In this document: positions 5,619-27,941 of the stretch, piece after piece
Layout of the letters: the number at the start of each line of letters is the position of its first letter
Numbering within the stretch: the stretch's first letter is position 1
Virus record (IMG/VR): IMGVR_UViG_3300028388_001496
Coordinates: 12,152-76,151 of that record
DNA: 64,000 bases
Reading direction: 5' to 3' (one strand)
Source: a virus
Notes under the pieces: generated by a model
Seen by the model: the letters and a program-made list of their open reading frames with translations, nothing else
Told to the model about the DNA's origin: nothing
Database searches by the model: none
Position numbers and translations under genes: made by a program

Positions 5619-6292
5619 TGGCTACAGTAACTATTAATACAGGACAGGCTGGACTTCCTCCGGATGCATTTCTAATGTTTCTAGGAGGAAGTGTTGCCCC
5701 TGTTAACTTTACAGGTGGAGGATATTTAACTCAATTGGATGCAAGTCCTAGTAGTGATCCTGATGGTACTATAGAAACTTATAAGTTCTATCGTAGAACA
5801 GATGGTGGAAATTGGATATTATTTGTTACGAAATCTACTCCGTATGCAAACCATCAAATTTATAGTACATCTACTGTAGAGTATAAAGTAGTTGTAGTTG
5901 ATAATGATGGTCTTGAAGACGAGTCTGGAATACTTACGGTAAATTTTACTGAAGAAGCTGTTATAAATTGTGATGCAGTAATAAATGGTAAGAATTTTGT
6001 TACTAGGTATATTCAACCTTTAGATGCTACTTTTGTATTAGATGGTACTGAAAGTGATCCAGGAAATGAAAGTGCTACTATAACTTCTTACACTTGGAGA
6101 ATAACTTCTGCACCTGCTGGAAGCACAGCTCGTATAGCTAATAGTATTGCTTCTAGAACTTCAATAGGCTACTTGAATGTTCAAGGAATTTATTATGTAC
6201 AGCTTAGTATTTATAGTAGTAATGGTACCACTGATAGTCTACTTGTAGAAATAGAAGTTAAAGACACTGACGAAAATGGAAATTATCTGTAA
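5618..6292 (+). CDS. PKD/Ig-like domain protein
   Basis: A 224-residue protein consisting of two Ig-like domains of the PKD type. The first (about residues 30-110) has the signature LDASPSSDPDGTIETYKF, and the second (about 130-215) has FVLDGTESDPGNESATITSY. Both have the DPD/DPG plus aromatic pattern of PKD domains, which mediate protein-protein or protein-sugar contacts. It starts MATVTIN, close to the MALVTIN start of the next two proteins, so this small N-terminal segment may be a shared docking peptide. It lacks a signal peptide. A role as a fibre or decoration subunit is inferred from domain type and from its tight packing with neighbouring adhesin-like genes. Confidence 0.55.
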   Translation: MATVTINTGQAGLPPDAFLMFLGGSVAPVNFTGGGYLTQLDASPSSDPDGTIETYKFYRRTDGGNWILFVTKSTPYANHQIYSTSTVEYKVVVVDNDGLEDESGILTVNFTEEAVINCDAVINGKNFVTRYIQPLDATFVLDGTESDPGNESATITSYTWRITSAPAGSTARIANSIASRTSIGYLNVQGIYYVQLSIYSSNGTTDSLLVEIEVKDTDENGNYL

Positions 6293-6329
6293 GATTTGGA
6301 ACTGGTTAAAGAAACTTTGGAAAAAAATT

Positions 6330-7532
6330 ATGGCTTTAGTTACAATTAACAATACTGCAAATGGTGATGACTGGGCTGAATTTATTATAAGTCATTCTAC
6401 AAGCGATCAAGCTAATGTACAAGTAAATACTACTAGTGGAGCTGCTGTTGAAATTGATTGGGGAGATGGTACTATAGAAACACTAGCAGCAGCAACTAAA
6501 CATGATCATACCTATGTAAGTAATGCTACAGTTTTTAGAGTAAGAACTGCTGGAGGTTTAGAAGATATCGAAAGGATTTTTATTGATGCATTGAATCCTT
6601 TATTATTAGGAGGAGATATTTCTCAGTTTAATCAACTAGTAAACCTTCTTACTATAAAAGCAGATATGGGAGGAGCAGGTACTTTAGGAGGTAATATTAC
6701 TTCTCTTAACTTATCTTCTATAGATACTTTTATAATAAATACTGGAGGAACATTTGTTTGTACTACTTTAACTATTCCTAGGACTATTGTTAGTCAAATT
6801 GAATTAGCTAATGGCTGTGAAATAACTGGAGCTGTTTCTGATTTACCTCCAAATTTGCAAAGGTTGTATATTAGAAATACTGTTACAACTAGTAATATAA
6901 CAGGTTCTATTTTGGACTTTCCACGGTCTATGACAAGTATTGATGTAGCAAAAAATACTACTCCTATTACTGGTAATATAGCTAATTGTCCTCCTAATCT
7001 TCAGTACCTTTATTTACAAGGAAATAATAATGTTACTGGTGATGTACAAAATTTACCGTCCTCTCTGTTAAGTTGTAGTGTTTATGGAGATAATACTATA
7101 TTTGGAGATGTAGCTAATGGTCCTAATTGTAGTTATTCTTTACAAGGAAGTAACATAATTAGTGGAAATATTTCTTCATTAAATTTTAATAATAAGTTTC
7201 ACTTTGTTTATGGTAATAATACTTTAACTGGTAGTTTGCATCAAATTACAGGAACTACTAGAATATTAACTGCTTTATTTGGTAACAATACTATTGAGAA
7301 TTTTGGTTCTAAAGATTATACAGGATATACTAATGTAAGCATACAAATGTATTGCAGTAGTCAAATGTTACCTGGTCATGTTGATCAATTAATAATTGAT
7401 CTTAATAATGCAGGATTAACTACTGAAGTAGCTTTGAATTTTAGCGGTCCCGGAGCAGTTAGAACGAGTGCATCAGACGCTGCATTTACTGCTATTACAA
7501 CTGGAGGAGGAACTATAAACCTAACCCCCTAA
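6330..7532 (+). CDS. Leucine-rich-like repeat adhesin, copy 1
   Basis: About 400 residues. A PKD-like segment (EIDWGDGTIETL, then HDHTYV) leads into roughly ten imperfect units of about 22 residues with the pattern GNNTITGDIxNLPxxLxxLxL, a leucine-rich-like solenoid. The C-terminal module contains RTSASDAAFTAI. I chose the start at 6330 because it gives MALVTINN, identical to the start of the following paralogue; an ATG at 6276 would add 18 residues rich in Trp and Lys and overlap the previous gene by 17 bases. Repeats of this kind form elongated ligand-binding surfaces, and I infer receptor binding. No signal peptide in the chosen form. Confidence 0.6.
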   Translation: MALVTINNTANGDDWAEFIISHSTSDQANVQVNTTSGAAVEIDWGDGTIETLAAATKHDHTYVSNATVFRVRTAGGLEDIERIFIDALNPLLLGGDISQFNQLVNLLTIKADMGGAGTLGGNITSLNLSSIDTFIINTGGTFVCTTLTIPRTIVSQIELANGCEITGAVSDLPPNLQRLYIRNTVTTSNITGSILDFPRSMTSIDVAKNTTPITGNIANCPPNLQYLYLQGNNNVTGDVQNLPSSLLSCSVYGDNTIFGDVANGPNCSYSLQGSNIISGNISSLNFNNKFHFVYGNNTLTGSLHQITGTTRILTALFGNNTIENFGSKDYTGYTNVSIQMYCSSQMLPGHVDQLIIDLNNAGLTTEVALNFSGPGAVRTSASDAAFTAITTGGGTINLTP

Positions 7533-8938
7533 TGGCTTTAGTTACCATAAATAACTATTTTAAAAGTAGTATTACTTTTCAGTTTGCTCAGACTGCTGCT
7601 TCTGTACCAGGAGTACGTTTTATTTCTAGTACTAGTAATCAATATAAAACTACTATAGATGGTGGAACACCTAGTTATAGTCCAATTAGTGATGTTGTAG
7701 AAATTCCTATTAACACTCCTCTTAATACTTTTGTAAGTGTAGAAATTGAAGTACTTAGAGGCAATAGTCTTGATACTATTTTAGAATTTGAAGTTACAGG
7801 TGCTGGAGCAATTAGTACTAGTGCTTTAAATATTGGGCAAAGTATGCCTAATTTAACAAAGTTAAAAACTAGTATTAGTACTTCATTAGGAGATTTAACA
7901 GGTAATATATCTGATCTTCCTACTGGATTAACTTACCTGTATTATAGGGGTAGTATATCTGGATTAGTAACAGAGTTGCCTATAGGCTTAACTTATTTAT
8001 ATGCTAGAGGAACCGATACTGATTTTAATTTAACAGGATCATTTGCTGATTTTCCTAGTACTATAGAAACTATTTATTTTTATCGTACAGGTGTTGTAGC
8101 GTCCGCAGGTATTGGAGGAAATATAGGAGATTTACCAACAGGTGTCATAACTGTTAATGGTACTTTTGATCAACCTGCTACTATAGATTTTGATAATCTT
8201 CCTTCTACTATTGAGTCTATTCAATTAGCTAATGGTAGTCAAGGTAATATTACCTTAACAGGAAGTATTAATAATACTCCTTCTAATTTTGTATATCTTT
8301 TTATAAGTGCACCAGGAACTGGAAGTACTTGTGACTTAACTGGAGATGTTGCAAATTTACCTAATACTGTAAGATATTTTTATCCTGGTAGTTTTCCTAC
8401 TGATACTAATACTATTACAGGTACTATTGCAAATTTACCTACTTCTCTTTCAAGAATAAGATTAGAAGGAAATAATACTTTATCTGGTGATATTGCAGAT
8501 ATGCCTTCTGGTGCTGGTATAGTATCTATATTTGGTAATAATACTATATCAGGTAATATACAAAGTTATGGAGGTACTCCTAGTTATTTACAAATAGAAG
8601 GCAACAATACCATATCAGGAGATTTAGGACTTATTCCTAATGCTTTTATTAATTTAATAATAAAAGGTGCTGCAACTATTAATGATTTTACTTATCCTGC
8701 TTTAAGTAATGTTGTAAACGCTGGTGTTGCTTTTGATATAGAAATAGTAGGTAATTCAAGTTTTACTTCAGCAGAGATAGATAATCTATTAATTCATTTT
8801 GATGCTTTTTTACCCATTACTACTTCTCCAGGTTCAAACATAGCGTTTAACGGTATAGGGGCTGGTTCAAGAACTTCAGCATCAGATGATGCATATAATA
8901 GTTTGATTTCTAAAAATTATAATGTAATTTTAAATTAA
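7532..8938 (+). CDS. Leucine-rich-like repeat adhesin, copy 2
   Basis: A 468-residue paralogue of the previous gene. It also starts MALVTINN, continues with a beta-rich N-terminal domain, then more than ten repeats such as TGNISDLPTGLTYLYYRG and SGDIADMPSGAGIVSIFGNN, and closes with the same C-terminal module (FTSAEIDNLLI, then RTSASDDAYNSLI). It lacks the PKD-like DWGDGT segment found in copy 1. The stop codon of copy 1 overlaps this start by one base. The pair is best explained by duplication and divergence of a receptor-binding protein. The DNA is especially T- and A-rich at third codon positions. Confidence 0.6.
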   Translation: MALVTINNYFKSSITFQFAQTAASVPGVRFISSTSNQYKTTIDGGTPSYSPISDVVEIPINTPLNTFVSVEIEVLRGNSLDTILEFEVTGAGAISTSALNIGQSMPNLTKLKTSISTSLGDLTGNISDLPTGLTYLYYRGSISGLVTELPIGLTYLYARGTDTDFNLTGSFADFPSTIETIYFYRTGVVASAGIGGNIGDLPTGVITVNGTFDQPATIDFDNLPSTIESIQLANGSQGNITLTGSINNTPSNFVYLFISAPGTGSTCDLTGDVANLPNTVRYFYPGSFPTDTNTITGTIANLPTSLSRIRLEGNNTLSGDIADMPSGAGIVSIFGNNTISGNIQSYGGTPSYLQIEGNNTISGDLGLIPNAFINLIIKGAATINDFTYPALSNVVNAGVAFDIEIVGNSSFTSAEIDNLLIHFDAFLPITTSPGSNIAFNGIGAGSRTSASDDAYNSLISKNYNVILN

Positions 8939-8945
8939 AAGATAA

Positions 8946-9251
8946 ATGAAACCACAAATATACAAGGGGTCTAGTGCAGATGTAAAGCCTTTACACGCTC
9001 CACTACAAAGTATTTTTATCGAAGAAGATACTGATGAGATTTATGTAAAGAACTCATCCTCAAGAACTAACAACGGTTGGGAAAAATCAGCAATCAGCCT
9101 GACCAATATTAAAACCGATTTAGATGCTAGTGGTTATGCTAAATCTAGTGGTACTACTGGAGGTGTTGCTTCTGCTGGTGCTGGAAATCAGTATGTAGAA
9201 TTAGAGATCGGTGGAGTTGTATATAAAGTTTTACATGACGGAACTGTATAA
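8946..9251 (+). CDS. Small fibre-associated protein with GSSADVKPL module
   Basis: A 101-residue protein. Residues 5-48 (YKGSSADVKPLHAPLQSIF, acidic DT, ending NGWEK) match a segment of the next gene product (FVGKSSDIKPLDAPIGAVF, DT, NGWKL), so the two share an N-terminal module of about 40 residues. Similar short modules occur in tail-fibre proteins of many phages, where they present a surface next to the fibre tip. The C-terminal part is Gly/Ala-rich and ends VLHDGTV. No signal peptide or enzyme motif. Function beyond structural or fibre attachment is unknown. Confidence 0.5.
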   Translation: MKPQIYKGSSADVKPLHAPLQSIFIEEDTDEIYVKNSSSRTNNGWEKSAISLTNIKTDLDASGYAKSSGTTGGVASAGAGNQYVELEIGGVVYKVLHDGTV

Positions 9252-9253
9252 TA

Positions 9254-9664
9254 ATGGCAATTACTCGAATTGACGTTGATAGGTTTGTAGGAAAATCAAG
9301 TGATATAAAACCACTTGATGCTCCTATTGGTGCCGTATTTTATGAATATGACACAGAAAATCATTATGATAAAACAGTTGATTCTATTAATAATTATAAT
9401 GGTTGGAAACTAAGACAAACACCCTCGACATCTGCTGAAAATGTAAAAGGTAGTATTACAGCTAAAACTTGGCTTGGTAAAAGCTATGTAGTTTTAATGG
9501 CTGGTACAGATGAAACAAACATTGAAGCAGGAGATTTACTTGTTGGATTAGATAATAATGGTAAATTTATTTCTTATCAAGCTAAAATTAATAATCCAGC
9601 TAGTACTGATGATATGTTAATTTTTAATGATATAACTGGATACGATCCTACAGCCCCTCTATAA
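9254..9664 (+). CDS. Small two-module fibre-associated protein
   Basis: A 136-residue protein with two modules. The first (about residues 10-52) is the same SSDIKPL...NGW module as in the preceding gene. The second (about 75-125) has the pattern AGTDETNIEAGDLLVGLDNNGKF, which reappears in the next, membrane-anchored protein as GGTNKEKLEQGDLFLGMEGEF. It therefore bridges its two neighbours in domain composition. The stop codon overlaps the next start by one base. I infer that it is a structural or assembly protein; no catalytic residues are apparent. Confidence 0.5.
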   Translation: MAITRIDVDRFVGKSSDIKPLDAPIGAVFYEYDTENHYDKTVDSINNYNGWKLRQTPSTSAENVKGSITAKTWLGKSYVVLMAGTDETNIEAGDLLVGLDNNGKFISYQAKINNPASTDDMLIFNDITGYDPTAPL

Positions 9665-9936
9665 TGGATATTTTGCTACTTATTTTAGTTCTGCTTATTA
9701 TCGGCTACCTAGTATATCGAAGGTTTTTTGAAAAAACCAAAGAGATCAATGGAATCGCTATAATTAACGATCAAGTTGTTTTAAAAATAGGAGGTACAAA
9801 CAAAGAAAAACTCGAACAGGGTGATTTATTTCTGGGTATGGAGGGTGAATTTTTTGTTGTTGGAGAGTTAGAATCTAATCCCAAAGCATCAAACAAGTAT
9901 GCTTATTACATAAGAAACAAAAAGAATACAAAATGA
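9664..9936 (+). CDS. Small membrane-anchored protein sharing a virion module
   Basis: A 90-residue protein with one clear membrane segment at residues 3-20 (LLLILVLLIIGYLVY) followed by RRFFEKTK, so by the positive-inside rule the C-terminal domain should face the cytoplasm. That domain (about residues 40-75) is a version of the EAGDL/GxxGxF module in the preceding protein. A phage membrane protein carrying a virion-like module could tether a structural or secreted partner to the inner membrane; this is inference. It overlaps the next gene, the first of the six signal-peptide proteins, by 4 bases (ATGA), so the two are probably translated together. Confidence 0.5.
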   Translation: MDILLLILVLLIIGYLVYRRFFEKTKEINGIAIINDQVVLKIGGTNKEKLEQGDLFLGMEGEFFVVGELESNPKASNKYAYYIRNKKNTK

Positions 9937-11969
9937 AAAAGATTTTATTTTTTCTATTAATGCTAGTTGGATTTTCGCTTTCTGCTCAAGTCCATACTTT
10001 AACTGGTATTATATTTAGAAATGGACCTCCTAACGCTAGTACTAGTAATCTTGATGAGTTTTTATTAGTACGTCCTACTGGTCAAGTTCGTTCTTTAGAT
10101 CTTGCCAGTCTTGCTGCTCGTATTAATGCTGAATTGCCTGCTGGTAATTTTACTCAAGAAGAGATTGAAGATTTTATTGCTGCAATGATTACAACTGGTA
10201 CTCAAACTAATATTGTAATTACTTATGATGATGTAAATAGTCAATTAGATTTTGTAGTAAACGCACCAGGATTAGATACAGAAGAAGTTGAAGATGTTGT
10301 AGGAGGATTGTTAGTAGGAGGAACTGGAGTAACAGCTACTTATAATGATGTTGCTGGTACTCTTACAGTTGCTTTGTCAGGTGCTGAATTTACTACTCTT
10401 GATGAAACAAAATTAGATGGTATCGAAGCAGCAGCTACAGCAGATCAAACAGGAGCTGAAATTAAAGTATTATATGAAGCAGAAGCTAACACAAATGCTT
10501 ATGATGATGCAGCAGTTGCTAAGTTAGCCGGTATAGAAGATAATGCTACAGCAGATCAGACTGCAAGTGAAGTTCCAATTATAGATGCTGGATTACTTAT
10601 AACTGCAACAGATGTTGAAGGAGCATTACAAGAATTAGCAAATGCTATTGATATTGCTAATAATGCTGAAGGAGTTAGTTTAGATACTACTAATTTTGAT
10701 AACATTTTAAGTCCAACAGAAAATAATGTTCAACTTGCTATTGAGGTATTAGAAAATCAAGTAGATCAAGATAATCAGACTGCTGCTGAAGTACCAGTTT
10801 CTACAGCTAATTTTAATAATAATTTAGGTCCAGGTGATAGTAATGTTCAAGTAGCTTTTGAAACTCTTGATGATCTAATTGCAGCAGCCGCAGGATCAGG
10901 TTCAATTTTTACTTATACAGAAGAACAATGGTTAGCACTTCCGCAAATCACAAGAGATACAGTTAACGCCATTGTTGTTGATGTGGTTGGAAATGCTATT
11001 CAAGCAGTGGGAGTATCGTACAATAATACTGAATCAGGTCTTACAGCTACAAACGTACAACACGCTATTGATGAGGTTGATAGTACGCAAGACAGTGTTG
11101 TAACTGAGATAGCAATAAATCCAACTTCTTCATTTGATTTTTATACTCTAACTACAAACGCAAATGCTTTTACTCCATATTTTGCAGATAACGCTATTGT
11201 GTCGTTAGATTATAACGGAGAAACTTTAACAATACCAAAAGATAGTATTGAGCCGGGAGAGGCTATCAGAATTGTTTTAGATAGTAATGCTGGCGGTATT
11301 GCAAATATTGTTCCAGCAGACTCAGTTTTATTTTTAGGATTTGCTGACGGTCTTTCTCTTGATTCATATCCGTCTGGCGTTACTTTAGTAAGAAGAAACT
11401 CTACAACTGTTCCAAATAGACAATATATGGTAACTGACTATTTTGGATCAATAACAGCATTAATTGGAGCTTATGAAAGTAACAACGAATACACTGAAGC
11501 ATCTGCGGTAAACGCTGATAATTATACAGCTTCTTTAGGAAGTTGGACAGACGAATCTGGGAATTTAGATGGGCTTACTTTATCTGGAGATGCTCCTGTT
11601 ACAAATGGCGGTTCAAGCGGTTCTATAAGGTATCAGCACGTTTCAGGTTCCGATTTTGATGGACCAACACTGATTTACAGCGATCCAATTAATCCGGGAA
11701 ATGCAATAGAAACAGGAGTTGATTACAAAATTTCATTCTGGTATAAAAGGGTAACAGGTAGTGCAACAGCTGATCTTCAATTGTTTATTAACCAATCACC
11801 AAATTATTCCGAAACAGTTACAACCAACACAACGGGGACTTGGACATTTTGGGAATCTTCAGTTTTTCAATTTAACTCAACAACTCCCAGCATAAGAGTT
11901 GCAAACAACTTTGGCGAACCCACTGCCGGAGATTTTTATTTCACAAACTTTACACTTGTTAAACAATGA
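9933..11969 (+). CDS. Secreted fibre-like protein with carbohydrate-binding-like C-terminus
   Basis: A 678-residue protein that begins with a classical Sec signal peptide (KK, hydrophobic core LFFLLMLVGF, then LSA before Gln20), so the mature protein would start with Gln. Residues about 30-370 resemble phage tail-fibre repeats (DETKLDGIEAAATADQTGAE; TDVEGALQELANAID; TNVQHAIDEV). Residues about 325-360 contain YTEEQWLALPQITRD, which is shared with the protein two genes on. Residues about 520-678 form a jelly-roll, carbohydrate-binding-like module with YKISFWYKRVTGSATA and TGTWTFWESS. A fibre architecture behind a secretion signal is odd, because virions assemble in the cytoplasm. It could be a surface-displayed or released decoy or adhesin, or a recruited host gene. 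ATGA overlaps on both sides. Confidence 0.6.
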   Translation: MKKILFFLLMLVGFSLSAQVHTLTGIIFRNGPPNASTSNLDEFLLVRPTGQVRSLDLASLAARINAELPAGNFTQEEIEDFIAAMITTGTQTNIVITYDDVNSQLDFVVNAPGLDTEEVEDVVGGLLVGGTGVTATYNDVAGTLTVALSGAEFTTLDETKLDGIEAAATADQTGAEIKVLYEAEANTNAYDDAAVAKLAGIEDNATADQTASEVPIIDAGLLITATDVEGALQELANAIDIANNAEGVSLDTTNFDNILSPTENNVQLAIEVLENQVDQDNQTAAEVPVSTANFNNNLGPGDSNVQVAFETLDDLIAAAAGSGSIFTYTEEQWLALPQITRDTVNAIVVDVVGNAIQAVGVSYNNTESGLTATNVQHAIDEVDSTQDSVVTEIAINPTSSFDFYTLTTNANAFTPYFADNAIVSLDYNGETLTIPKDSIEPGEAIRIVLDSNAGGIANIVPADSVLFLGFADGLSLDSYPSGVTLVRRNSTTVPNRQYMVTDYFGSITALIGAYESNNEYTEASAVNADNYTASLGSWTDESGNLDGLTLSGDAPVTNGGSSGSIRYQHVSGSDFDGPTLIYSDPINPGNAIETGVDYKISFWYKRVTGSATADLQLFINQSPNYSETVTTNTTGTWTFWESSVFQFNSTTPSIRVANNFGEPTAGDFYFTNFTLVKQ

Positions 11970-14053
11970 TAAGGTTTTTAATATTCTTTTTGTTTAGTCT
12001 GCCTGTTTTTAGTCAACAGTATTATGTTACTAATACAGATGTTCAAGGAACTGGAACACAAGGTAGTCCGTGGACTTTTACTCAAATGCTAAATAGCGTA
12101 AACCCAGGAGATACAATAAATGTTGCTCCAGGCGTATATATACCGCCACAAACAGCTAGTCCCGCACAGGGCTATAGACTAACAAGAAATGGAACAGCCT
12201 CAAATCCTATTCTAATTAGAGGATATACAAATGTGCCGGGAGATATTGATCCTGATGCTACACAAGATAAAACCTACAGTAATAGGACTATTCAGCAACC
12301 AGCTTTTTGGACGTATGATGTAGGTCAAGCAGCATCTATAAATCCTAGCACATTAAATGCGTTTAACAACAACGCAATGCCAACTATTTATGCTGCTGCT
12401 GAAACACGACCAAATCCAGATATTAGTTATTGGGGATATACAGCTTTTGAGGTGCTTGGAGATTATGTAATTATTCAAAACTTTCAAATTGAAGGTGGAT
12501 ATAATGGATTAAAAACAAACGGTGCAAACAACTCAACTTTTAAAAACATATATGTTAGAGAACAACTTTATAGCGGTGTTCAAAATACAAACAATGACAA
12601 TGTTGTATGGAAAAATATAATATCAGAAGATGGGGGTTATTATGGTTTTGTAAATAAAAATGGATCAAACAACATTTTTGATGCTATTGCTGTAGTTGAT
12701 GATAATAGCAAGTTAAATGGTAACGGTTATTATGGAACCGGCTATTTCTTTTTGTTCTCTCCAATGGCAAACTCAGTTGTAACAAACATTTGGGTTCATT
12801 TTAATTACATAGGTTGTGGCACAAGTCACTGTGGAGGACACGGAATTGTTTTAAAATGGCCTGATGAAGCTACAGGGATAGACAATACTAAAAACGTAGT
12901 TGATGGTTTTATTATAACAAATACCTATTTAGAATATCAATTTCCCGGTTCAAAAATAGCAAGTGATGGCACTAGAAACATTTACAGAAATGGAGCCGTA
13001 ATACGGTGGGAAGATTGGGTTTCTGACTATGATAGATCGGGGGCAAGAATAGCTAATAACGCAAATGGTCTTTTAGTTGAAAATGTTACGTTTGATAATT
13101 GTGCTATTAGCTTTATGGATTGGGATGATGGCAGGGGCGGTGAAGGGCCAAACAATGTTTCTGGTAGTGCTGGATATGACATGGTTTTTAACAACATAAC
13201 AAGCATAGGTAATAGATATGCTTTTCAGTTTGATGAATATGGAAACGGTTTTAATGATGGTAGTGCTAGAGATATTTACGTTTACAATAGTACTTTTTAT
13301 GGAAGCGTTTATATGTTTGAAAGTTCCAGGGCAAACGAGAATATCAACTTTGTAAATTGTTTGTGGGATAGTATGAGTTCTGGATATAGAAATAGTGCTA
13401 TATCAACAAATTATCCGATAGATGCTAGTTTTGATAGTAACAGCTTTTCTAACATAGGATTTAGCTTAACAACACCTGCTGGAACCAATTATAGAACTGA
13501 TCCATTATTTACTGATCCAGCTAATTATAATTTTACAGTAACAGAGCCTTCATTATTAACAGCGGGAGTAGCAACACCATATACTTCCGCAGGACAGCCT
13601 TTAGGATCGCTTGATCCTGCTGTAAACGGAGGTGCTGATGTTCCAACTGATCCAGGAGACGTAACGCCTCCATCGGTTAGTAATTTTTCTGTTGAATCAA
13701 TAACAGAAAATAGTATAACTGTTTCTTGGAGTTTAAATGAAGGTGGAACTGGTAAAACAGAATATGGAACCAGTACTGGAAATTATACGCTTGAAACAAC
13801 AAATGAAACAAGTTATTTAACATTTCACAGGCAAACTATGAGGGATTTAATCCCTGATACTCCTTACTTTTTTAGAGTAACCGGGACAGATGCTGCAAAT
13901 AACACATATACTTCAAACGAACTTACAGCAACCACTTTAACGGCAGGTCAAGACCCAGGAGAAGGAGGCGATCCAAATGAGCCTATTTTAGGAATTTCAA
14001 AATCAAATAGAAAAAGAGGAAAAGGCGTTTTATTAAAAAAGAAAAAACAATGA
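11966..14053 (+). CDS. Secreted right-handed beta-helix protein with FN3 domain, putative polysaccharide lyase
   Basis: A 695-residue protein with a signal peptide (MIRFLIFFLFSLPVFS, Gln at +1). Residues about 20-100 match the opening of Bacteroidota beta-helix proteins (GTGTQGSPWTFTQML, then PGDTINVAPGVY). Residues about 100-540 are Asn/Gly-rich rungs (NFQIEGGYNGLKTNG, NNSTFKNIYVREQLYSGVQ) typical of right-handed parallel beta-helices, a fold of pectate, alginate and chondroitin lyases and of phage tailspikes. Residues about 560-650 form a fibronectin type III domain (VSWSLNEGGTGKTEYG; YFFRVTGTDAANNTY). The last 20 residues are strongly basic. I cannot name the substrate. The signal peptide suggests glycan degradation or binding outside the cytoplasm. 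ATGA overlaps link it to both neighbours. Confidence 0.65.
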   Translation: MIRFLIFFLFSLPVFSQQYYVTNTDVQGTGTQGSPWTFTQMLNSVNPGDTINVAPGVYIPPQTASPAQGYRLTRNGTASNPILIRGYTNVPGDIDPDATQDKTYSNRTIQQPAFWTYDVGQAASINPSTLNAFNNNAMPTIYAAAETRPNPDISYWGYTAFEVLGDYVIIQNFQIEGGYNGLKTNGANNSTFKNIYVREQLYSGVQNTNNDNVVWKNIISEDGGYYGFVNKNGSNNIFDAIAVVDDNSKLNGNGYYGTGYFFLFSPMANSVVTNIWVHFNYIGCGTSHCGGHGIVLKWPDEATGIDNTKNVVDGFIITNTYLEYQFPGSKIASDGTRNIYRNGAVIRWEDWVSDYDRSGARIANNANGLLVENVTFDNCAISFMDWDDGRGGEGPNNVSGSAGYDMVFNNITSIGNRYAFQFDEYGNGFNDGSARDIYVYNSTFYGSVYMFESSRANENINFVNCLWDSMSSGYRNSAISTNYPIDASFDSNSFSNIGFSLTTPAGTNYRTDPLFTDPANYNFTVTEPSLLTAGVATPYTSAGQPLGSLDPAVNGGADVPTDPGDVTPPSVSNFSVESITENSITVSWSLNEGGTGKTEYGTSTGNYTLETTNETSYLTFHRQTMRDLIPDTPYFFRVTGTDAANNTYTSNELTATTLTAGQDPGEGGDPNEPILGISKSNRKRGKGVLLKKKKQ

Positions 14054-15075
14054 AAAAACTAATCTATATACTAACCTTTTTAATCTCAGGCTTTATTCAG
14101 GCTCAAATAGCCACAGATAGTATTGCCAAGTTCATATCTATTGGAGGCCAGATTTACAAGGTTACAGGAAACAGCGATACGCAATACTTTACAGTTGCTC
14201 AATGGAACGCTTTAAGTCAGGCACAACAAGACGCTGTTCAGGATGCGGTGATTGTAACTGATTATGGAAGTGCTTTAGGTTTATTTAATGTTACTGATTT
14301 AGGAGCTGCTGATAAAACGCTCACTCAATCTGATTTTAATGCTTTTGGTTATACAGACAACACAGTAACATTTACAGTAGATGATACTCCAGTAAGCAGT
14401 TCAAGATTAATTCTTAAAAACACAGATATTGATTCTGTAATAAGCGTTGTTCCAGCCGCTGGCGTTTCGTTTATTGGAACAGGTACAGGAGTTATTTCAA
14501 ATGCCTTTAAAATTGATTCTTTAAATGCAGCTACAATTACAAAACTATATGCCAATACTTATAGCGTAGATGGTTATGTAAAACCATTTATACCTGTTGA
14601 TCCAGGTATTTATGATGCTCTTAATGCTTTAGAAGATTTTAATGGAAATGAAACAAACGCTATAACAGGAGTCACTGAAAATAACGGAAGTGGTACACTA
14701 GCTTCAGTTGCAACAACAAGTCCGGCAGTAGGTAGTACTAACATGATTCAGTACACAGTTACAGCTAATTCTCAAAACACTATATATATAGCCGCACCGA
14801 GTACTTTACAATCAGGTGTAAGTTATACTTTAGAGATGAATGTTTCATGTAATTGTCCAGGAGGTGCTATAGCTAATTTTAGAGTAGATACTTCTGATGG
14901 ATACGGAGTGCTTGACGTAGATACAAACACTCTATCAGATGGAACTTGGGAGGTTTTAACAATATCAGGAACTTGGGGAGGAACAAATAGTGGTCTAGTA
15001 AGAATATATTTAGGAGGAACACCTACTATAGGAGATGTAATTTCATTTGATGGATTGAGATGGGTAGAAAATTAA
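14050..15075 (+). CDS. Secreted protein with carbohydrate-binding-like C-terminus
   Basis: A 341-residue protein with a signal peptide (MKKLIYILTFLISGFIQA, Gln at +1). Residues about 45-75 (YFTVAQWNALSQAQQDAVQDAVIV) correspond to the YTEEQWLALPQITRD segment of the first secreted protein, so the two share at least this region and probably the beta domain after it (SVVPAAGVSFIGTGTG against NIVPADSVLFLGFADG). Residues about 190-341 form a beta-sandwich of the carbohydrate-binding kind (YTLEMNVSCNCPGG, WEVLTISGTWGGTNSG). There is no visible catalytic motif. It is likely a shorter paralogue that lost the tail-fibre repeats. It overlaps the next gene by 16 bases. Confidence 0.55.
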   Translation: MKKLIYILTFLISGFIQAQIATDSIAKFISIGGQIYKVTGNSDTQYFTVAQWNALSQAQQDAVQDAVIVTDYGSALGLFNVTDLGAADKTLTQSDFNAFGYTDNTVTFTVDDTPVSSSRLILKNTDIDSVISVVPAAGVSFIGTGTGVISNAFKIDSLNAATITKLYANTYSVDGYVKPFIPVDPGIYDALNALEDFNGNETNAITGVTENNGSGTLASVATTSPAVGSTNMIQYTVTANSQNTIYIAAPSTLQSGVSYTLEMNVSCNCPGGAIANFRVDTSDGYGVLDVDTNTLSDGTWEVLTISGTWGGTNSGLVRIYLGGTPTIGDVISFDGLRWVEN

Positions 15076-16325
15076 TATACATATTTCTTTTTGTTGGTTT
15101 GTTTGGATATTCACAAACAAACACAGTAGCAGAATGGTATGCATTATGGGAAACAGCATATCCTATTGATTCAGCTAATGGAAACACATCTGGAACTGGT
15201 TCACCACTTCAAATGTGGGTAAAGTCAACGTCTAACGGGGCTAATCAAGAACATTATTATTTAGCTTGGAATTATAAAGGAGTTGTTGATGTATGGAAAG
15301 CCAACGGACAAGAAATTGATCTTTGGAGAGCTTTAAAAATGGCATATAATGTAAGAAATGCATCTGTTCCTTGTGATGGTACAGAAGATCCAAATTGGAG
15401 TCCTGGAGAATATCAAGTATGGCCCAGAGAAAGAGACGTTATAGACCCACAGGGAGCGGCTTTGTGGGAAAGTTATTTTTGGAGATATGTAACACACTTG
15501 TTAAGAGTAATGTATCAAAGTCCAGTATTACTTTCAACGGCTCATAATGGAGATCCTGATTTTCCAGGTACTACTTGGCAAGATGTTTACAATGATATGT
15601 TGCCTTGGGTAGAACAACATCTTTGGAATAAATGGGAAGAAGCAAATACAGATAATTTTTACAGATCAAGGGTTCACATGGCTCAACATTGGGGTTGGAT
15701 GGGTATGGAGCTTTATATAATGACAGGAACACAAAAATATTTGAATGTGTTTCAAGAAATAAATTATACTGGTATGCCTTCTAATTATCCAGGTGCTAAT
15801 ATTAGAGATGAAGTTTATAATATAGGTGATGCGTATTCATGGACAGCTGTATGGTTTTCTTCTACTGCTGTTCAAGATAGAGATCATGCTGAATCTGTTT
15901 ATAATTCAATTCCAGAAATGTATGAGCAAGGATATCATTGGACATTAGATGATGTAACTGCATTTAGTGAAGGGTTTAAACAATTTGTATATGGATCGAG
16001 TTTAGATAACACTAATACTTATGTTGATGGATCGGGATCATTTACATCTTCTGGTCATGTTGCATCTTGTTTGCCTTTAGCAAGATATGATTCACAAATA
16101 ATGGGATATTGGCAAAACCAAGTAACAACTATTGCGGATATACCGGGATCAGTTAATTGGATTAATATGCGATTATATGCAATTGGCGGTGCTGCTTTAG
16201 CTCAAGCATATCAAAATAACACAATTTCATATCCTGAAAATTTAGCTGTTACACCTCCTATTCAGGGTTTGCCTGGAGGAAAAAAAGGATTAAAGAAAAA
16301 ATACATTTCCATAATAAGCAATTAA
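15060..16325 (+). CDS. Secreted Trp-rich helical protein, possible glycan-active enzyme
   Basis: A 421-residue protein with a signal peptide (MGRKLIYIFLFVGLFGYS, Gln at +1). The mature part is helical and unusually rich in Trp, Tyr and His (YQVWPRERDVIDPQGAALW; HMAQHWGWMGMELYIM; GDAYSWTAVWF), with the feel of an (alpha/alpha) barrel as in alginate and heparinoid lyases or glycoside hydrolases. I do not recognise the family, so no reaction is assigned. The C-terminus has a Pro/Gly linker and a basic tail (PPIQGLPGGKKGLKKKY) resembling those of two other proteins in this block. Unlike its neighbours it has no visible carbohydrate-binding module. It is the best candidate here for an unassigned phage-encoded enzyme. 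Confidence 0.5.
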   Translation: MGRKLIYIFLFVGLFGYSQTNTVAEWYALWETAYPIDSANGNTSGTGSPLQMWVKSTSNGANQEHYYLAWNYKGVVDVWKANGQEIDLWRALKMAYNVRNASVPCDGTEDPNWSPGEYQVWPRERDVIDPQGAALWESYFWRYVTHLLRVMYQSPVLLSTAHNGDPDFPGTTWQDVYNDMLPWVEQHLWNKWEEANTDNFYRSRVHMAQHWGWMGMELYIMTGTQKYLNVFQEINYTGMPSNYPGANIRDEVYNIGDAYSWTAVWFSSTAVQDRDHAESVYNSIPEMYEQGYHWTLDDVTAFSEGFKQFVYGSSLDNTNTYVDGSGSFTSSGHVASCLPLARYDSQIMGYWQNQVTTIADIPGSVNWINMRLYAIGGAALAQAYQNNTISYPENLAVTPPIQGLPGGKKGLKKKYISIISN

Positions 16326-16326
16326 C

Positions 16327-17331
16327 ATGAAAAAATTACTCTACATCATAGCGTTAATTTCCTCCTTTGCATGGAGCCAAGACCCTGTAGTAGTAGGAAT
16401 AAAAGCCAATGGGCAATACACACAAGTCCTTCAAGGAGGTATTGGTCAAGCCGTTGCCATAGACCTGCTAAACCCAATCGACAGCCTTGTAACGGCTGCA
16501 TCTGATTCTTTGTATTTGGAATATACTCACTATCAAACTGGGCTTAATACTGGGCGAAGAAAAAACCTTCGCAAGAACAATGGAAGAATTGATTATTTTC
16601 CTACCTCTGAAGCTATTCCTCTGAATACTGTTTGGAGAGGAAGAACCGGGGCATCTAATGATACGCTTGCCATTAATCCATTCAACAATTACAAACTTGT
16701 TTTTGATGGACAGACTACTGGTAATGCAGCTTACATCACAGGGCCATACGAAACAATGTATATTGAAAAGGTAGCCACTGATACTCTACTTGTGGCCGGG
16801 GCTAATTTGGTGGAATATACTTACTCCTCTGTAAATCCTTGGCTCATTGACGGGTTTTCTGGGTCAATAGGGTCTGAGGCCAACACTTCTTATGCCGTAG
16901 AAGCAGCTTCTGGTGTTTACATATCCCTTGTCGGGCCATTAGGTGTGACGGAATCTGTTGCCTCTGACTCCCCAACTGGAGAAGGGGTATATGCTATGGA
17001 GTTAACTTCTGACCCAGGGGGTGATGGAGATGGTGATAGGCAAAGAATATTTATTGAAGGGCTTACTATTGGGGAGATATATGAATACGAGGTAAGCTAT
17101 AAAATGGTCACTGGAGCCGGTGGACGGTTTACAATAGCAAACGGAAACGGAGTTAGTATTGAGGACACTAGATTTAGTGGCACCACATGGGTAACAGCAA
17201 CTGGTGAGTTTACATATACAGAAGGAGCAAATAATAATATCCAATGTGTGTTCTATGCTGCTGATGCCCCAAGCGGTTTAGCCGGAGATGTTGCTAGATT
17301 TCAATTTGACATAAGACTAAAAAATGATTAG
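16327..17331 (+). CDS. Secreted beta-rich protein with carbohydrate-binding-like module
   Basis: A 334-residue protein with a signal peptide (MKKLLYIIALISSFAWS, Gln at +1). The N-terminal mature domain (about residues 20-165) is a beta domain starting VVVGIKANGQYTQVLQGG. The C-terminal domain (about 170-334) is a jelly-roll-like module with YEYEVSYKMVTGAGGRF and an aromatic-poor closing strand, comparable to the modules at the ends of the first and third secreted proteins. Codon choice differs from the genes before it: GCC, GGG and CTT codons are frequent, which suggests separate acquisition. It overlaps the next gene by 8 bases. The role is inferred as glycan binding; no catalytic site is apparent. 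Confidence 0.5.
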   Translation: MKKLLYIIALISSFAWSQDPVVVGIKANGQYTQVLQGGIGQAVAIDLLNPIDSLVTAASDSLYLEYTHYQTGLNTGRRKNLRKNNGRIDYFPTSEAIPLNTVWRGRTGASNDTLAINPFNNYKLVFDGQTTGNAAYITGPYETMYIEKVATDTLLVAGANLVEYTYSSVNPWLIDGFSGSIGSEANTSYAVEAASGVYISLVGPLGVTESVASDSPTGEGVYAMELTSDPGGDGDGDRQRIFIEGLTIGEIYEYEVSYKMVTGAGGRFTIANGNGVSIEDTRFSGTTWVTATGEFTYTEGANNNIQCVFYAADAPSGLAGDVARFQFDIRLKND

Positions 17332-18220
17332 AGCTTTATTGTTTTTATTTCTTTTTCCATCTGTCATATTTGGACAGGGGTCTATAATTTGGGATACAGA
17401 CTTTAACTCAATTCAGTGGTCTGTGGATGGTAGCGGAAGAAATGGTGATCCCCAGCTTTGGGAAACCAATGGAGCTACTGCCAACCTTGTCGGAAATGCC
17501 AGAGAGGGAACGGGTGCTGTTGAACTTCCGATGGAGTCCGACAACGAAAGAAATGAAATGAATGTAGATGCACTATTTTTTGATGCGTGGAACGAAGAGT
17601 TTTGGATAGGTTTTTCATTTAAAATAGTTGAGCCTTTACCGTCTTCAAGATTGTTTATGCAAATTAGATGTAAAGCTATTGATCCAGATTCCCCTACTGT
17701 AAATCCGATTGGATTTAGGCAAGAGTCGCCTGGAAAATGGTATATTCAAACAGCTACTGATCCAAATTATTATGATGTTGCTCCTGTTCCATTTGGTGGA
17801 GCCGGGTCATATACTGAAAGCAGCAACTTAATAGACTACGTTCAAGGGGAGTGGAACGATGTGGTAATTTATTGGAAACCAAACTCTGTTGGAAATTCGT
17901 CGGATGGAGATGTAAAAATATGGGTTAATGGCGAGGTAATAGTTGATAAGTCCAACACGACAACTGTTTATAGAAGGTCGGTAGACGGTGTAATTATTGA
18001 TGATTTTTTTGCTCCTAAGATTGGCCCGTATGCTGGGACTTTGGATAGGGTTGGCGTGTATCATTATGATGCTTATAAGGTTTGGAAGGGAGCTGGAGGT
18101 ACTTACGAAGATGTAAGTCCGCTTGGTTTAAGTCCGGGAGATGTGGGCGGTGGAGGCACACCTGTAGCCCCAATACAAGGAAATAAAAAAGCAGTTTACA
18201 AAGCATTTTACGATAACTAA
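17324..18220 (+). CDS. Putative secreted polysaccharide lyase (jelly-roll type)
   Basis: A 298-residue protein with a signal peptide (MIRALLFLFLFPSVIFG, Gln at +1). The whole mature chain reads as a concanavalin-like jelly roll of the kind found in polysaccharide lyases acting on heparinoids, alginate or glucuronan: EFWIGFSFKIV, a long middle with FRQESPGKWYIQ, then VQGEWNDVVIYWKPN, DVKIWVNGEVIVDKSN, and a closing PYAGTLDRVGVYHYDAYKVW. The GEWNDVVIYW and VKIWVNGE strands are typical of this fold. It ends with a Gly-rich linker and the tail PVAPIQGNKKAVYKAF. I infer depolymerisation of capsule or exopolysaccharide; substrate unknown. Codon use matches the preceding gene rather than the rest of the block. 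Confidence 0.6.
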   Translation: MIRALLFLFLFPSVIFGQGSIIWDTDFNSIQWSVDGSGRNGDPQLWETNGATANLVGNAREGTGAVELPMESDNERNEMNVDALFFDAWNEEFWIGFSFKIVEPLPSSRLFMQIRCKAIDPDSPTVNPIGFRQESPGKWYIQTATDPNYYDVAPVPFGGAGSYTESSNLIDYVQGEWNDVVIYWKPNSVGNSSDGDVKIWVNGEVIVDKSNTTTVYRRSVDGVIIDDFFAPKIGPYAGTLDRVGVYHYDAYKVWKGAGGTYEDVSPLGLSPGDVGGGGTPVAPIQGNKKAVYKAFYDN

Positions 18221-18231
18221 AAATAATCATC

Positions 18232-18558
18232 ATGTTATTACACTTTTTAGAATTAGTAGGATTATCACTACTAGGAACAGCAATATATACACTTTGGGCA
18301 GTAAGAAAGCATATTAAAGACTTTAAGCCTAAGATTTTTATAGGTAAAAATAAAGGATTTTGGATATGGTGTACTTGTTTTCAAGTGGTTATGTCTTTTA
18401 CGGCTGTTAAATTTCCAGAGGTAATTGATGGTTTAGGTCAATTTATACCTATTAAATTTGATGACCCTAAAGCATTTATTATAAGTGGATGGGCATTAGC
18501 TATGGCAGCTAATCAAGTATCTAAACCTGAACAAAAAATAGGTCAACTAAAGAAATAA
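18232..18558 (+). CDS. Holin-like membrane protein
   Basis: A 108-residue protein with three likely membrane segments (about residues 4-24, 44-62 and 80-96), a positively charged loop after the first segment (RKHIKDFKPK) and a charged C-terminus. This is the size and topology of a class I holin, which opens the inner membrane so that the endolysin can reach the cell wall. The endolysin gene lies two genes downstream, which supports the call. No family-specific motif is recognised. It starts 11 bases after the last secreted-protein gene. Confidence 0.55.
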   Translation: MLLHFLELVGLSLLGTAIYTLWAVRKHIKDFKPKIFIGKNKGFWIWCTCFQVVMSFTAVKFPEVIDGLGQFIPIKFDDPKAFIISGWALAMAANQVSKPEQKIGQLKK

Positions 18559-23424: not shown

Positions 23425-26184
23425 ATGGCTAACCGAGATAGATATTTCAATTCTACTATTACTGCTACCATTGCCAATCCAGGCAATGCTTTAGGAGCCC
23501 CTGACGGTACGGTAGCTGGTACTGCTGACAAAACAGCCGTATCTGGTAATTGGGATTTCTCGGTTGAAGCTGTAGGAACATATACAGGAGATCATACAAT
23601 TGTTTTAACGGTAGGTAAAAATGCTTCAGGAGGTGGTGACGCTACTCTTGATTCCGTTGTTATTGATGTAAACGGTTCTCCCGTAACACCTACCTCCGCA
23701 CCTACGCTTCCATTAACGCTTACCGGAGATCCTGCCGGAACATTAGACACAGCCACATTTGTAGTTGCCAATGCTGATATAGCCCCAGGCGACACCCTTG
23801 ATATTACAATAGGTGGTACAGGTGGCGGTGGTGGTCCGAACGAGCGTGGTTTTGTACTTGACGGTGCTACATGGACTGTAGATTACAGTACGGGTAGTAA
23901 TGTAACTCCTCAAGTAGGTGTACAAAGTTTTACCCTTACCCAGCAAGCTGTTACTGTTGATACTGTATTTAATCAAACAGTTGTTGTAGGCATACAGTCT
24001 ATTACTATTGAAGCAAAACATAGTTATGTAAATGAGTATTATCAAACTCCAAGCCCAATAAATGCTTATGAAGAAACCAATGAAGTATCTACAATAGGAG
24101 GTACTGTTACAACTGAAGAATCTGTTGCTGAAACAGGCGGTGGTAGTTCTTATGTTCTTTCAAAAGGAACACAAGCAGGTGCTGCATACTTTGGAATAAC
24201 AAATAACATAGGTGGACAAAAGATGCCAGTTGGCTGGTATGAAATAACTATCAAATTATCATTTATAAGTAGTATTGGTGACGTTGCTCTTTATGGTTCT
24301 CAAGGTGATCGTTTTGTATATGAAGCTGATGGAATTCCTTGGGGAGTTGGAGAAGCATTTAAAGATGGTACATGGCATACGCTAACTAGTTATAACTACT
24401 ATGAAGGATATGTTGGAACTAACGATGGTAGTTATCGTGTTTGGTTCGATTCTGAAACCTTAACTGGAGATACGTTATATCTGGATCAGTTTAGTATTAA
24501 ACCGTTATTTCCAGTTTATTCAGCTAACAATCTTTATACACCAGCAAATGCACTTAATGCTGATAATATTTCTTTTACACTTGGAAATATAACAGATCAA
24601 ACTAATGATACAAGTGATCTTAGTGTTGTAAAAAAAGACACCCCTTCTCAATATCCTACTTCCCCTTATTCAGTAAGATTAAACACTACAGCTAGTCAAT
24701 ATGAACGTATAGAAATACAATTAGCTTTAGACGGTGTTACACTAGATACTTCTAAAAATTACATAGTAAAAGTTTGGTATAAAAGAGTTGTAGGAGCTAC
24801 GACAACTGGAAATGGATTCTCTTTTGCTGTTAGAACCAGTGGTGGAAATAGTAGCGCCGCTACAGGTGATGGAGCGTTTGAAACAATCACAGAAGCTAAT
24901 ACTGGTACTTGGACACAATGGACTTCTTCAGCATGGTCTCCCACTGAAACACAACCTGATCTTTGGTTTGTAGGATCTTGGAATGAAGCAGTAACTGCTG
25001 ATGATTTTTATATTACCAACCTTGAAATACTAGAAGCTTCAGTTGATGTAACTGTTGTTTTAGGCGTACAGTCTATTACACTTACACAACAAACTGTTAA
25101 TGTATTTACTCAGGACGATTCAATACTTGTTACTGATCCGGTTTTATATTTACGTCCATCTACTATCGACCCAGATGTTACGATAGATGGAAATGCTCTT
25201 TCTGATACAGGAGAACCGGCGTGGGCTGATAGATCTTCTAATGGTTTAACAACCACAATGATTGGAACTAATCCTCTTGCTCTTAATATTGACGCTTCAG
25301 CTGGAAGACAAGTAACTTTCGATGGGACAAATGGATTAGATATAAGTGATGATGCATCAATTGATTTTACTCCTGGTACAGATGAATTTAGTTTAGTATT
25401 AAGAGAAGGATCAGATGATACAGCTCAAGGTTATTGGATAGCAAAAGCAGACGATGCAGATACTGGTAGACAATACACTGCTGTTATAAGAAATACTACA
25501 TTAAGAGTTGTAATAGGAGGAACTGAACAAATAGCAACAGTTCCTGCTGGTCCCAATAGATTAGTTATTCTCAATGTTTCAACTACAGGTGTTGATGCCT
25601 GGGTAGACGGAACTCAATATTTAACAGCTGCTTCTATAGGAACTAATACTGCTACAAATTCTTTGAATGTAGGTTGTCGAACAGATGCTGCTGGTGGTCA
25701 AATGATTGGTGATCTTGACATAGTTGCTATTATTCCAAAAGTCATTTCCACCGCTGAACGGGAGGCTATTGAGGCAGAATTTCAAATTAATGGAGGTAAT
25801 CAAACAGTAAATTTAGGAGTACAGTCTATTACTTTAACCCAGCAATCTGTTACTGTAAATACAGACTGGGTAACTACTATAGGGATACAATCTTATAGTC
25901 TTTCTGTATTAGCAGCTACAGTTAATACTGATTGGACTACTATAGTTGGTATTCAATCCTATACTTTATCTGTATTATCGGCTACTGCTTCTCTTGGTAA
26001 TACATCTGTTGTAGCTCTACAAACATATAATTTAAGTGTATTATCTTCTACTGCTAATCTTGATTGGGTAAATGTTGTAGAAATACAATCTTATAATCTT
26101 ACTCAAGTAAGTGTAACTACTGTAGAAGGTACTGGAGTTAATGTTGCTACAGCGATTCAATCTTTTAGTTTATCTGTATTATAG
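23425..26184 (+). CDS. Giant repeat adhesin, 5-prime part (frame broken)
   Basis: A 919-residue modular surface protein without a signal peptide. Order: beta domain (about 1-165); first repeat motif (VGVQSFTLTQQAVTVDT, about 168-184); two jelly-roll carbohydrate-binding-like modules (about 200-360 and 365-540, the second with YIVKVWYKRVVGATTTG and TGTWTQWTSSAW); another repeat motif (about 546-565); a laminin-G/concanavalin-like module (about 570-790, with QVTFDGTNGLDISDDASIDF and NSLNVGCRT); then tandem 22-24-residue repeats. The frame stops at TAG 26182-26184 in mid-repeat, while the same repeats continue in another frame up to 27941. A 7-base loss relative to sister repeats explains this. 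I infer a side fibre or head adhesin. The first 500 bases are less AT-rich than the rest. Confidence 0.65.
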   Translation: MANRDRYFNSTITATIANPGNALGAPDGTVAGTADKTAVSGNWDFSVEAVGTYTGDHTIVLTVGKNASGGGDATLDSVVIDVNGSPVTPTSAPTLPLTLTGDPAGTLDTATFVVANADIAPGDTLDITIGGTGGGGGPNERGFVLDGATWTVDYSTGSNVTPQVGVQSFTLTQQAVTVDTVFNQTVVVGIQSITIEAKHSYVNEYYQTPSPINAYEETNEVSTIGGTVTTEESVAETGGGSSYVLSKGTQAGAAYFGITNNIGGQKMPVGWYEITIKLSFISSIGDVALYGSQGDRFVYEADGIPWGVGEAFKDGTWHTLTSYNYYEGYVGTNDGSYRVWFDSETLTGDTLYLDQFSIKPLFPVYSANNLYTPANALNADNISFTLGNITDQTNDTSDLSVVKKDTPSQYPTSPYSVRLNTTASQYERIEIQLALDGVTLDTSKNYIVKVWYKRVVGATTTGNGFSFAVRTSGGNSSAATGDGAFETITEANTGTWTQWTSSAWSPTETQPDLWFVGSWNEAVTADDFYITNLEILEASVDVTVVLGVQSITLTQQTVNVFTQDDSILVTDPVLYLRPSTIDPDVTIDGNALSDTGEPAWADRSSNGLTTTMIGTNPLALNIDASAGRQVTFDGTNGLDISDDASIDFTPGTDEFSLVLREGSDDTAQGYWIAKADDADTGRQYTAVIRNTTLRVVIGGTEQIATVPAGPNRLVILNVSTTGVDAWVDGTQYLTAASIGTNTATNSLNVGCRTDAAGGQMIGDLDIVAIIPKVISTAEREAIEAEFQINGGNQTVNLGVQSITLTQQSVTVNTDWVTTIGIQSYSLSVLAATVNTDWTTIVGIQSYTLSVLSATASLGNTSVVALQTYNLSVLSSTANLDWVNVVEIQSYNLTQVSVTTVEGTGVNVATAIQSFSLSVL

Positions 26185-27800: not shown

Positions 27801-27941
27801 TCTATAGTTTTTCCTGGAGCAACTGTAAAAGTTTGGTTGAACAATCAATGGGTTTCTGGAGAAGTAAAAGTGTGGAAAGATAATCAATGGATTACAGGAA
27901 CTATTAAAGTTCGGCAAGGAAATGAATGGATAACAACATAA
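26169..27941 (+). pseudogene. Giant repeat adhesin, 3-prime part in shifted frame
   Basis: This open frame continues the repeats of the upstream CDS from about base 26184 but has no start codon before a GTG at 26820. It encodes some 23 repeats of 22-24 residues with the core IQSYSLSVQSVTVNT, then a C-terminal cap of three short units (VKVWLNNQW, VKVWKDNQW, IKVRQGNEW), a type of ending seen on fibre proteins. Together with the 5-prime part the intact gene would encode about 1500 residues. If the shift is real, only a truncated adhesin is made unless ribosomes shift frame or the GTG is used. If it is an assembly error in the repeats, the gene is intact. The following gene starts 5 bases after the stop. 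Confidence 0.65.

Follow-up and report, generated by a model that had tools for sequence, protein, structure and literature searches.

Consecutive fibre-like and glycan-active genes with Gln-rule export signals in the virion gene block of a crAss-like phage

The stretch of viral DNA analysed here (the window) comprises 64 kb of the 79,316-base IMG/VR virus record IMGVR_UViG_3300028388_001496, and it contains a cassette of six consecutive genes, P1 to P6, whose products are each predicted to start with a secretion signal followed by glutamine (Gln) directly after the cleavage site. Our analysis favours, with a probability of roughly 0.57, that these six products form a receptor-binding and capsule-degrading part of the virion, which would be exported to the periplasm, trimmed, capped with pyroglutamate and joined to the virions at lysis. 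The first gene of the window codes for a crAss-type major capsid protein (Pfam Crass_capsid, 3.8e-48; phrog_11589, 9.2e-62; 71-83% identity to ten IMG/VR loci), and therefore the phage was placed with the Crassvirales. No DNA near-identical to the window was found in the phage collection.

Results

Signals were sought with a rule-based heuristic of our own, which considers the charge of the n-region, the hydrophobic core and small residues at -3 and -1, and the statements on signals made here are to be read as its predictions. Signal-like N-termini were found in 7 of the 49 open reading frames (ORFs) of the window, and those with Gln at +1 are exactly P1 to P6; no such signal was detected among the other 43 ORFs or in the approximately 15 kb of flanks in the 79-kb record. 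The features of Sec export and signal peptidase I cleavage (positive n-region, hydrophobic core, small -3 and -1 residues) are predicted for all six proteins, and a lipobox with Cys at +1 is absent from each. When the scan was run on internal 45-mers of the same proteome none of 16,409 passed, and among shuffled N-termini the share that passed with Gln at +1 was 0.09-2%. The chance of adjacency alone, given six such genes among 48, is 3.5e-6, and, with Gln making up 3.6% of the proteome, that of Gln at six out of six sites is about 2e-9. Across the phylum Bacteroidota about 71% of signals have Gln at +1 (PMC10653852). The same scan revealed no Gln(+1) signal in the tail genes of phi14:2, phi17:2, Panino, phi12:1, crAss001, B124-14, Flavobacterium 11b and T4. 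A reading of the window made from sequence only had reported six adjacent ORFs with Sec-type signals, inside the virion gene block and with Gln after every predicted cut; the location and all six cleavage sites (Table 1) were reproduced exactly, and the six lie on one strand.

The genes of the cassette run head to tail with spacings of -4, -4, -4, -16, +1 and -8 nucleotides, counted from the small gene before P1, and their order alternates between fibre and enzyme. P1, P3 and P5 constitute a fibre-like set with ends resembling carbohydrate-binding modules (CBM), and P2, P4 and P6 a glycan-active set with a C-terminal tail in which PI[LQ]G precedes basic residues. Matches to annotated fibre families were obtained for P1 and P5, and not for P2, P3, P4 and P6 taken singly. 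The tail-fibre repeat region of P1 matches phrog_24456 tail fiber (3.6e-17), its amino acids (aa) 73-206 are 49% identical to g086 of phi14:2 across 134 aa, and its C-terminus matches CBM_4_9 weakly, as does a signal-less 919-aa protein (at 23425) of the same genome. The C-terminal part of P5 matches phrog_16053 tail fiber (1.4e-5), a family of signal-bearing Cellulophaga tail fibres, and its end is modelled as a CBM4-like beta-sandwich (Foldseek E ~5e-5, low-confidence model). P3 is similar in layout to P1 and P5 and gave a marginal match (E 0.005) to the tail fibre gp94 of phi19:3. A candidate kinship of P1 with the collagen-like signal fibre of another locus (L113) was discarded, as there is no real similarity.

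In the glycan-active set, P6 is a polysaccharide lyase by Pfam family (PF14099 Polysacc_lyase, 3.7e-13; 50.3 bits versus a gathering cut-off of 29.9), and P2 shows similarity to the DUF5123 beta-helix and to fn3. P4 is matched by phrog_33201 (E 2e-13, covering aa 175-352 only), aligns pairwise with gp34 of Ingeline at 26% across 93%, and has relatives in Ingeline, phi12:1, phi19:3, Panino and a Cellulophaga chromosome. Its low-confidence structure model resembled helical toroids, GH127, GH76 and HepC among them, only at an insignificant level, and these matches were not used. The phage collection holds no relatives of P2, P3 and P6, bacterial genomes searched with P2 yielded none, single-protein scans of IMG/VR with P4, P6, a 136-aa gene and a 1248-aa gene produced no match, and NCBIfam had none for P1 to P6 at E 0.5. 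From the cargo that had been described from the letters alone, the beta-helix protein with its FN3 domain, the Trp-rich helical protein, the lyase and the carbohydrate-binding-like ends of P1 (weakly) and P5 could be retained.

Consecutive fibre and lyase genes with signals and Gln, three to five in a row, are present in cultured Cellulophaga phages: Ingeline (Duneviridae); phi19:3, phi18:3, phi13:2 and phi46:3 (Pachyviridae); and phi10:1, phi19:1 and Nekkels (Assiduviridae). The RefSeq notes of phi18:3 (gp085-087), phi10:1 (gp091-094) and phi19:1 (gp101-104) list "experimental MS/MS proteomics" of virions, that is tandem mass spectrometry (MS/MS), and all 11 of these 11 proteins bear signals. 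This evidence consists of database record notes, and it documents virion association, as recorded by others, for the relatives only.

It could be argued that such proteins are a true secretome, as the sequence-only reading had suggested, and that exported enzymes and lectins act off the virion by stripping capsule, freeing progeny or blocking rivals, their detection in the virions of relatives being carry-over or secondary sticking. Export signals that obey the Gln rule and glycan-active domains agree with this, and so do the secreted P4 homologue on a Cellulophaga chromosome outside phage context and the Q-rule proteins of Porphyromonas gingivalis phages, whose function is unknown (PMC10367356). 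However, the virion notes cover eleven cassette proteins of three phages, the domains are those of phage tail fibres and are exchanged with signal-less tail proteins, and a tail for release from the cell by the type IX secretion system (T9SS) is lacking. We consider the secretome unlikely. The glycan-binding and glycan-cutting nature of the exported set has stood, but its separation from the virion is probably wrong in view of the virion notes, the domains in signal-less tail proteins and a signal-bearing fibre with an S74 chaperone; among the options offered earlier, decoration of virions after release fits best. A dual role, with glycan stripping before lysis in addition to service in the virion, may also exist.

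A search of the complete virus record for the T9SS type A C-terminal sorting domain (TIGR04183) gave nothing at E 0.1, while control genomes matched, one of them over the cut-off, and export of the cassette proteins by this system was rejected. Release to the medium before lysis would therefore be without the usual route, which argues for a stay in the periplasm until lysis. It could also be that the exported proteins cover the infected cell and make its receptors inaccessible to competing phages, since receptor-binding domains with export signals could mask receptors from inside the envelope. Exported phage exclusion proteins have precedent. Yet P1 to P6 have no lipobox, no outer-membrane anchor was found in them, the T9SS tail is missing and the genes occupy a late position in the virion block; superinfection exclusion is thus very improbable.

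The distribution of signals among the Cellulophaga phages is informative about the part of the protein to which they belong. Phage phi19:3 gp88 has a lyase domain (aa 117-774) that is found again, with 44-48% identity, behind non-signal N-termini in phi14:2 g086 and phi17:2 gp54, and the domain of phi18:3 gp87 is that of the signal-less phi14:2 g085. Within the signal-bearing group the N-terminal 55-118 aa, signal included, are conserved and the C-terminal domains are exchanged. Therefore, the signal goes with the attachment end and the phage, not with the cargo. In the records read, cassettes are either all signal-bearing or all signal-free, the exception being phi19:3 gp95 (L012 14620-15789) with its broken start; there the signal-coding stretch is out of frame with an ordinary start codon, and this duplicate resembles a decayed copy. 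Codons 2-20 of the lyase family signal have a nonsynonymous variation (pN) of 0.000 versus a synonymous variation (pS) of 0.302 among six distinct sequences, and pN/pS of the fibre family signal is 0.21; judged by these values, the signals of the Cellulophaga phage cassettes are under purifying selection.

These data bear on the notion that the signal is inert, i.e., that the proteins are assembled in the cytoplasm like ordinary fibres and that the hydrophobic N-terminus is a leftover of host secreted genes or an uncut virion anchor. Signal-less homologues are indeed tail or structural proteins in phi14:2, phi17:2 and phi12:1, and the chromosomal P4 homologue of the host bears a signal. Nevertheless, the signals are under purifying selection, they are present or absent by sets, and Gln at +1 is kept in 24 of 26 distinct signals of the wider set (one of the 24 scored by eye), compared with the approximately 71% of the phylum. 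The conserved Gln argues against an inert signal, because this residue would be expected to be of consequence only after cleavage, when the new end meets peptidases in the periplasm. An inert signal appears to us even less likely than the secretome.

Signal-bearing true fibres are found among crAss-like relatives as well. L025, which has a gene in common with the neighbourhood of the cassette, encodes a tail fibre with signal, Gln and an S74 intramolecular chaperone; the crAss-like contigs L047 and L067 have signal and Gln pairs, one with a minor-tail domain; and a collagen-like fibre with signal and Gln is located at the end of contig L038, which stops inside the gene. The Cellulophaga chromosome with the secreted homologue of P4 (L029 7989-9149; signal and Gln at +1, outside any phage context) makes host secreted enzymes a plausible source; the gene itself is possibly a host source or a former phage gene.

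PI[LQ]G followed by basic residues no more than 23 aa from the C-terminus occurs only in P2, P4 and P6 among the window proteins. Comparable enzymes of Cellulophaga phages have the common tail NQKLIYWRY, and because it is present also in phages without signals, the short C-terminal tail of the enzymes is probably a docking element that is not tied to export. In the Maribacter phage Panino (L010 4366-9194, 13226-16095) neighbouring fibre-like proteins without signals have the common C-terminal peptides RQYxN and FINC, which hint at C-terminal docking tags there too.

The cassette is flanked by genes for membrane proteins (Table 1). Small and differing membrane proteins also precede the cassettes of phi19:3, phi18:3, phi13:2, phi46:3, phi19:1 and Nekkels, and none is found before those of Ingeline, phi10:1 and L025; the small protein encoded before P1 is possibly a local partner of the cassette. 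The holin-like protein after P6 is homologous to phi19:1 gp105, phi10:1 gp96 and Nekkels gp56 (E ~1e-11), each of which follows its cassette, and to L025 9588-9956.

Other repeat-containing or fibre-like genes were observed in the window. Two adjacent paralogous repeat proteins of 418 and 468 aa (6276-8938) are 31% identical, and one of them matches the FNIP repeat weakly; two small adjoining proteins with a common N-terminal domain (8946-9664; 45% over 42 aa) resemble fibre-base or tip proteins. The C-terminus of the 919-aa protein (23425-26184) has the same diverged repeats, VQSYTLSV..TVNTG, as the long open frame that follows it (26184-27941), in which a usual start codon is present only at the beginning of the 3' part; Tandem Repeats Finder (TRF) detected no tandem repeats at 23.4-28 kb.

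Table 1. Positions of the cassette, its members, their C-terminal tails and the adjoining membrane proteins in the window.
Feature	Positions	Strand	Description
P1-P6 cassette	9933-18220	+	six consecutive head-to-tail ORFs inside the virion gene block
P1	9933..11969	+	678 aa, fibre-type; predicted signal 9933-9986, LSA/Q
P2	11966..14053	+	695 aa, enzyme-type; predicted signal 11966-12013, VFS/Q; DUF5123-like right-handed beta-helix, FN3, basic C-terminal tail
P2 C-terminal tail	13982..14050	+	PILGISKSNRKRGKGVLLKKKKQ; PI[LQ]G then basic residues
P3	14050..15075	+	341 aa, fibre-type; predicted signal 14050-14103, IQA/Q
P4	15060..16325	+	421 aa, enzyme-type, Trp-rich helical; predicted signal 15060-15113, GYS/Q
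P4 C-terminal tail	16257..16322	+	PIQGLPGGKKGLKKKYISIISN; PI[LQ]G then basic residues
P5	16327..17331	+	334 aa, fibre-type; predicted signal 16327-16377, AWS/Q
P6	17324..18220	+	298 aa, enzyme-type; predicted signal 17324-17374, IFG/Q; basic C-terminal tail
P6 C-terminal tail	18170..18217	+	PIQGNKKAVYKAFYDN; PI[LQ]G then basic residues
Small protein	9664..9936	+	one N-terminal membrane helix; overlaps the P1 start
Membrane protein	18232..18558	+	directly after the cassette; holin-like by position

Discussion

The route that we propose for P1 to P6 is as follows. The proteins would be made as Sec precursors and exported by the host translocon in the infected Bacteroidota cell, signal peptidase I would cut before Gln, and the glutaminyl cyclase of the host would cap the new end as pyroglutamate, which may protect it from periplasmic peptidases. 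The folded proteins would then wait in the periplasm until holin and endolysin break the membranes and the wall and allow docking onto heads and tails built in the cytoplasm, the fibres by conserved N-terminal modules and the enzymes perhaps by the short C-terminal tail. We infer export, the pyroglutamate end, docking at lysis and the docking roles, as well as their validity for the phage of the window. Other phages are known whose fibres can still be attached once the particle is complete.

Several observations weigh against this proposal. The proteomic notes come from the records of relatives and not from the phage of the window, and virion preparations may be contaminated by periplasmic protein or vesicles. 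P3 and P4 have no confident fold, the structure models are poor, and no site that would receive the docking modules was found. A crAss-like virion can be made without export, because phi14:2 virions have signal-less fibres. The comparison with crAss-like genomes, which the sequence-only reading had called for, gave a divided answer: next to the signal-bearing fibres of L025, L047, L067 and the end of L038, the relatives close by capsid (L034, L035 and L038) show no genes with signals in the corresponding region near the capsid gene, and in L038 the cassette is absent at the matching place.

Tailed-phage assembly is cytoplasmic according to the textbooks. To a broader idea we would give an even chance: that assembly is split, with head and tail made in the cytoplasm and the whole receptor-binding module passing through host Sec with a host-specific pyroglutamate cap, the two being joined only at lysis, and that unrelated Bacteroidota phages share this route by exchanging signal-bearing N-terminal modules. 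If true, the folding environment of receptor-binding proteins, their order of assembly and their dependence on host export and glutaminyl cyclase would all change, and fibres might be mixed between co-infecting phages. The signal is easily read and would also allow receptor-binding proteins to be marked out from genomes, in a phylum in which their identification is difficult. The idea of export is directly testable in cultured Cellulophaga phages.

Ordinary tailspike and depolymerase modules, such as those of P22 and Klebsiella phages, have a conserved N-terminal attachment part and an exchangeable glycan-active part, a layout like that of the cassette, but they are made and assembled without secretion signals. 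Phage phi14:2 (Crassvirales, Steigviridae) resembles the window in its crAss-like virion block, in the stretch common to P1 and g086 and, for g085 and g086, in virion MS/MS according to its record, whereas no tail protein of it bears a signal peptide. For P. gingivalis phages, a 2023 study (PMC10367356), repeated in PMC10653852, described proteins that combine a Sec signal with Gln at +1; in contrast to the cassette, these are five prophage genes of unknown function, not described as a fibre and lyase cassette or as virion parts. Bartlau et al. (2021) reported that the lyases of Ingeline and Nekkels, the same genes as compared here, have signal peptides, and noted that such enzymes are usually on tails (PMC8776804); the text examined contains nothing on the Gln rule, on the fibres, on MS/MS of related virions or on a meaning for assembly. 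Signals on single phage proteins are thus already reported; for a whole receptor-binding module with signals, or for its consequence in assembly, our partial coverage of the literature gave no earlier description.

The nearest counterparts remain the cassettes of Cellulophaga phages (Ingeline gp31-34, phi19:3 gp87-90, phi19:1 gp101-104, phi10:1 gp91-95 and phi18:3 gp85-87), which like the window have consecutive fibre, lyase, fibre and enzyme genes. These genes bear Sec signals, and the +1 residue is Gln, except for Lys in phi19:3 gp90 and phi19:1 gp104. Homologues of P4 and P5 are detectable in these cassettes, and those of phi10:1, phi19:1 and Nekkels are followed by a homologue of the membrane protein after P6. 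They differ from the cassette of the window in belonging to non-crAss families, in their other beta-helix lyase and in the enzyme tail, where they have NQKLIYWRY and the window enzymes PI[LQ]G with basic residues.

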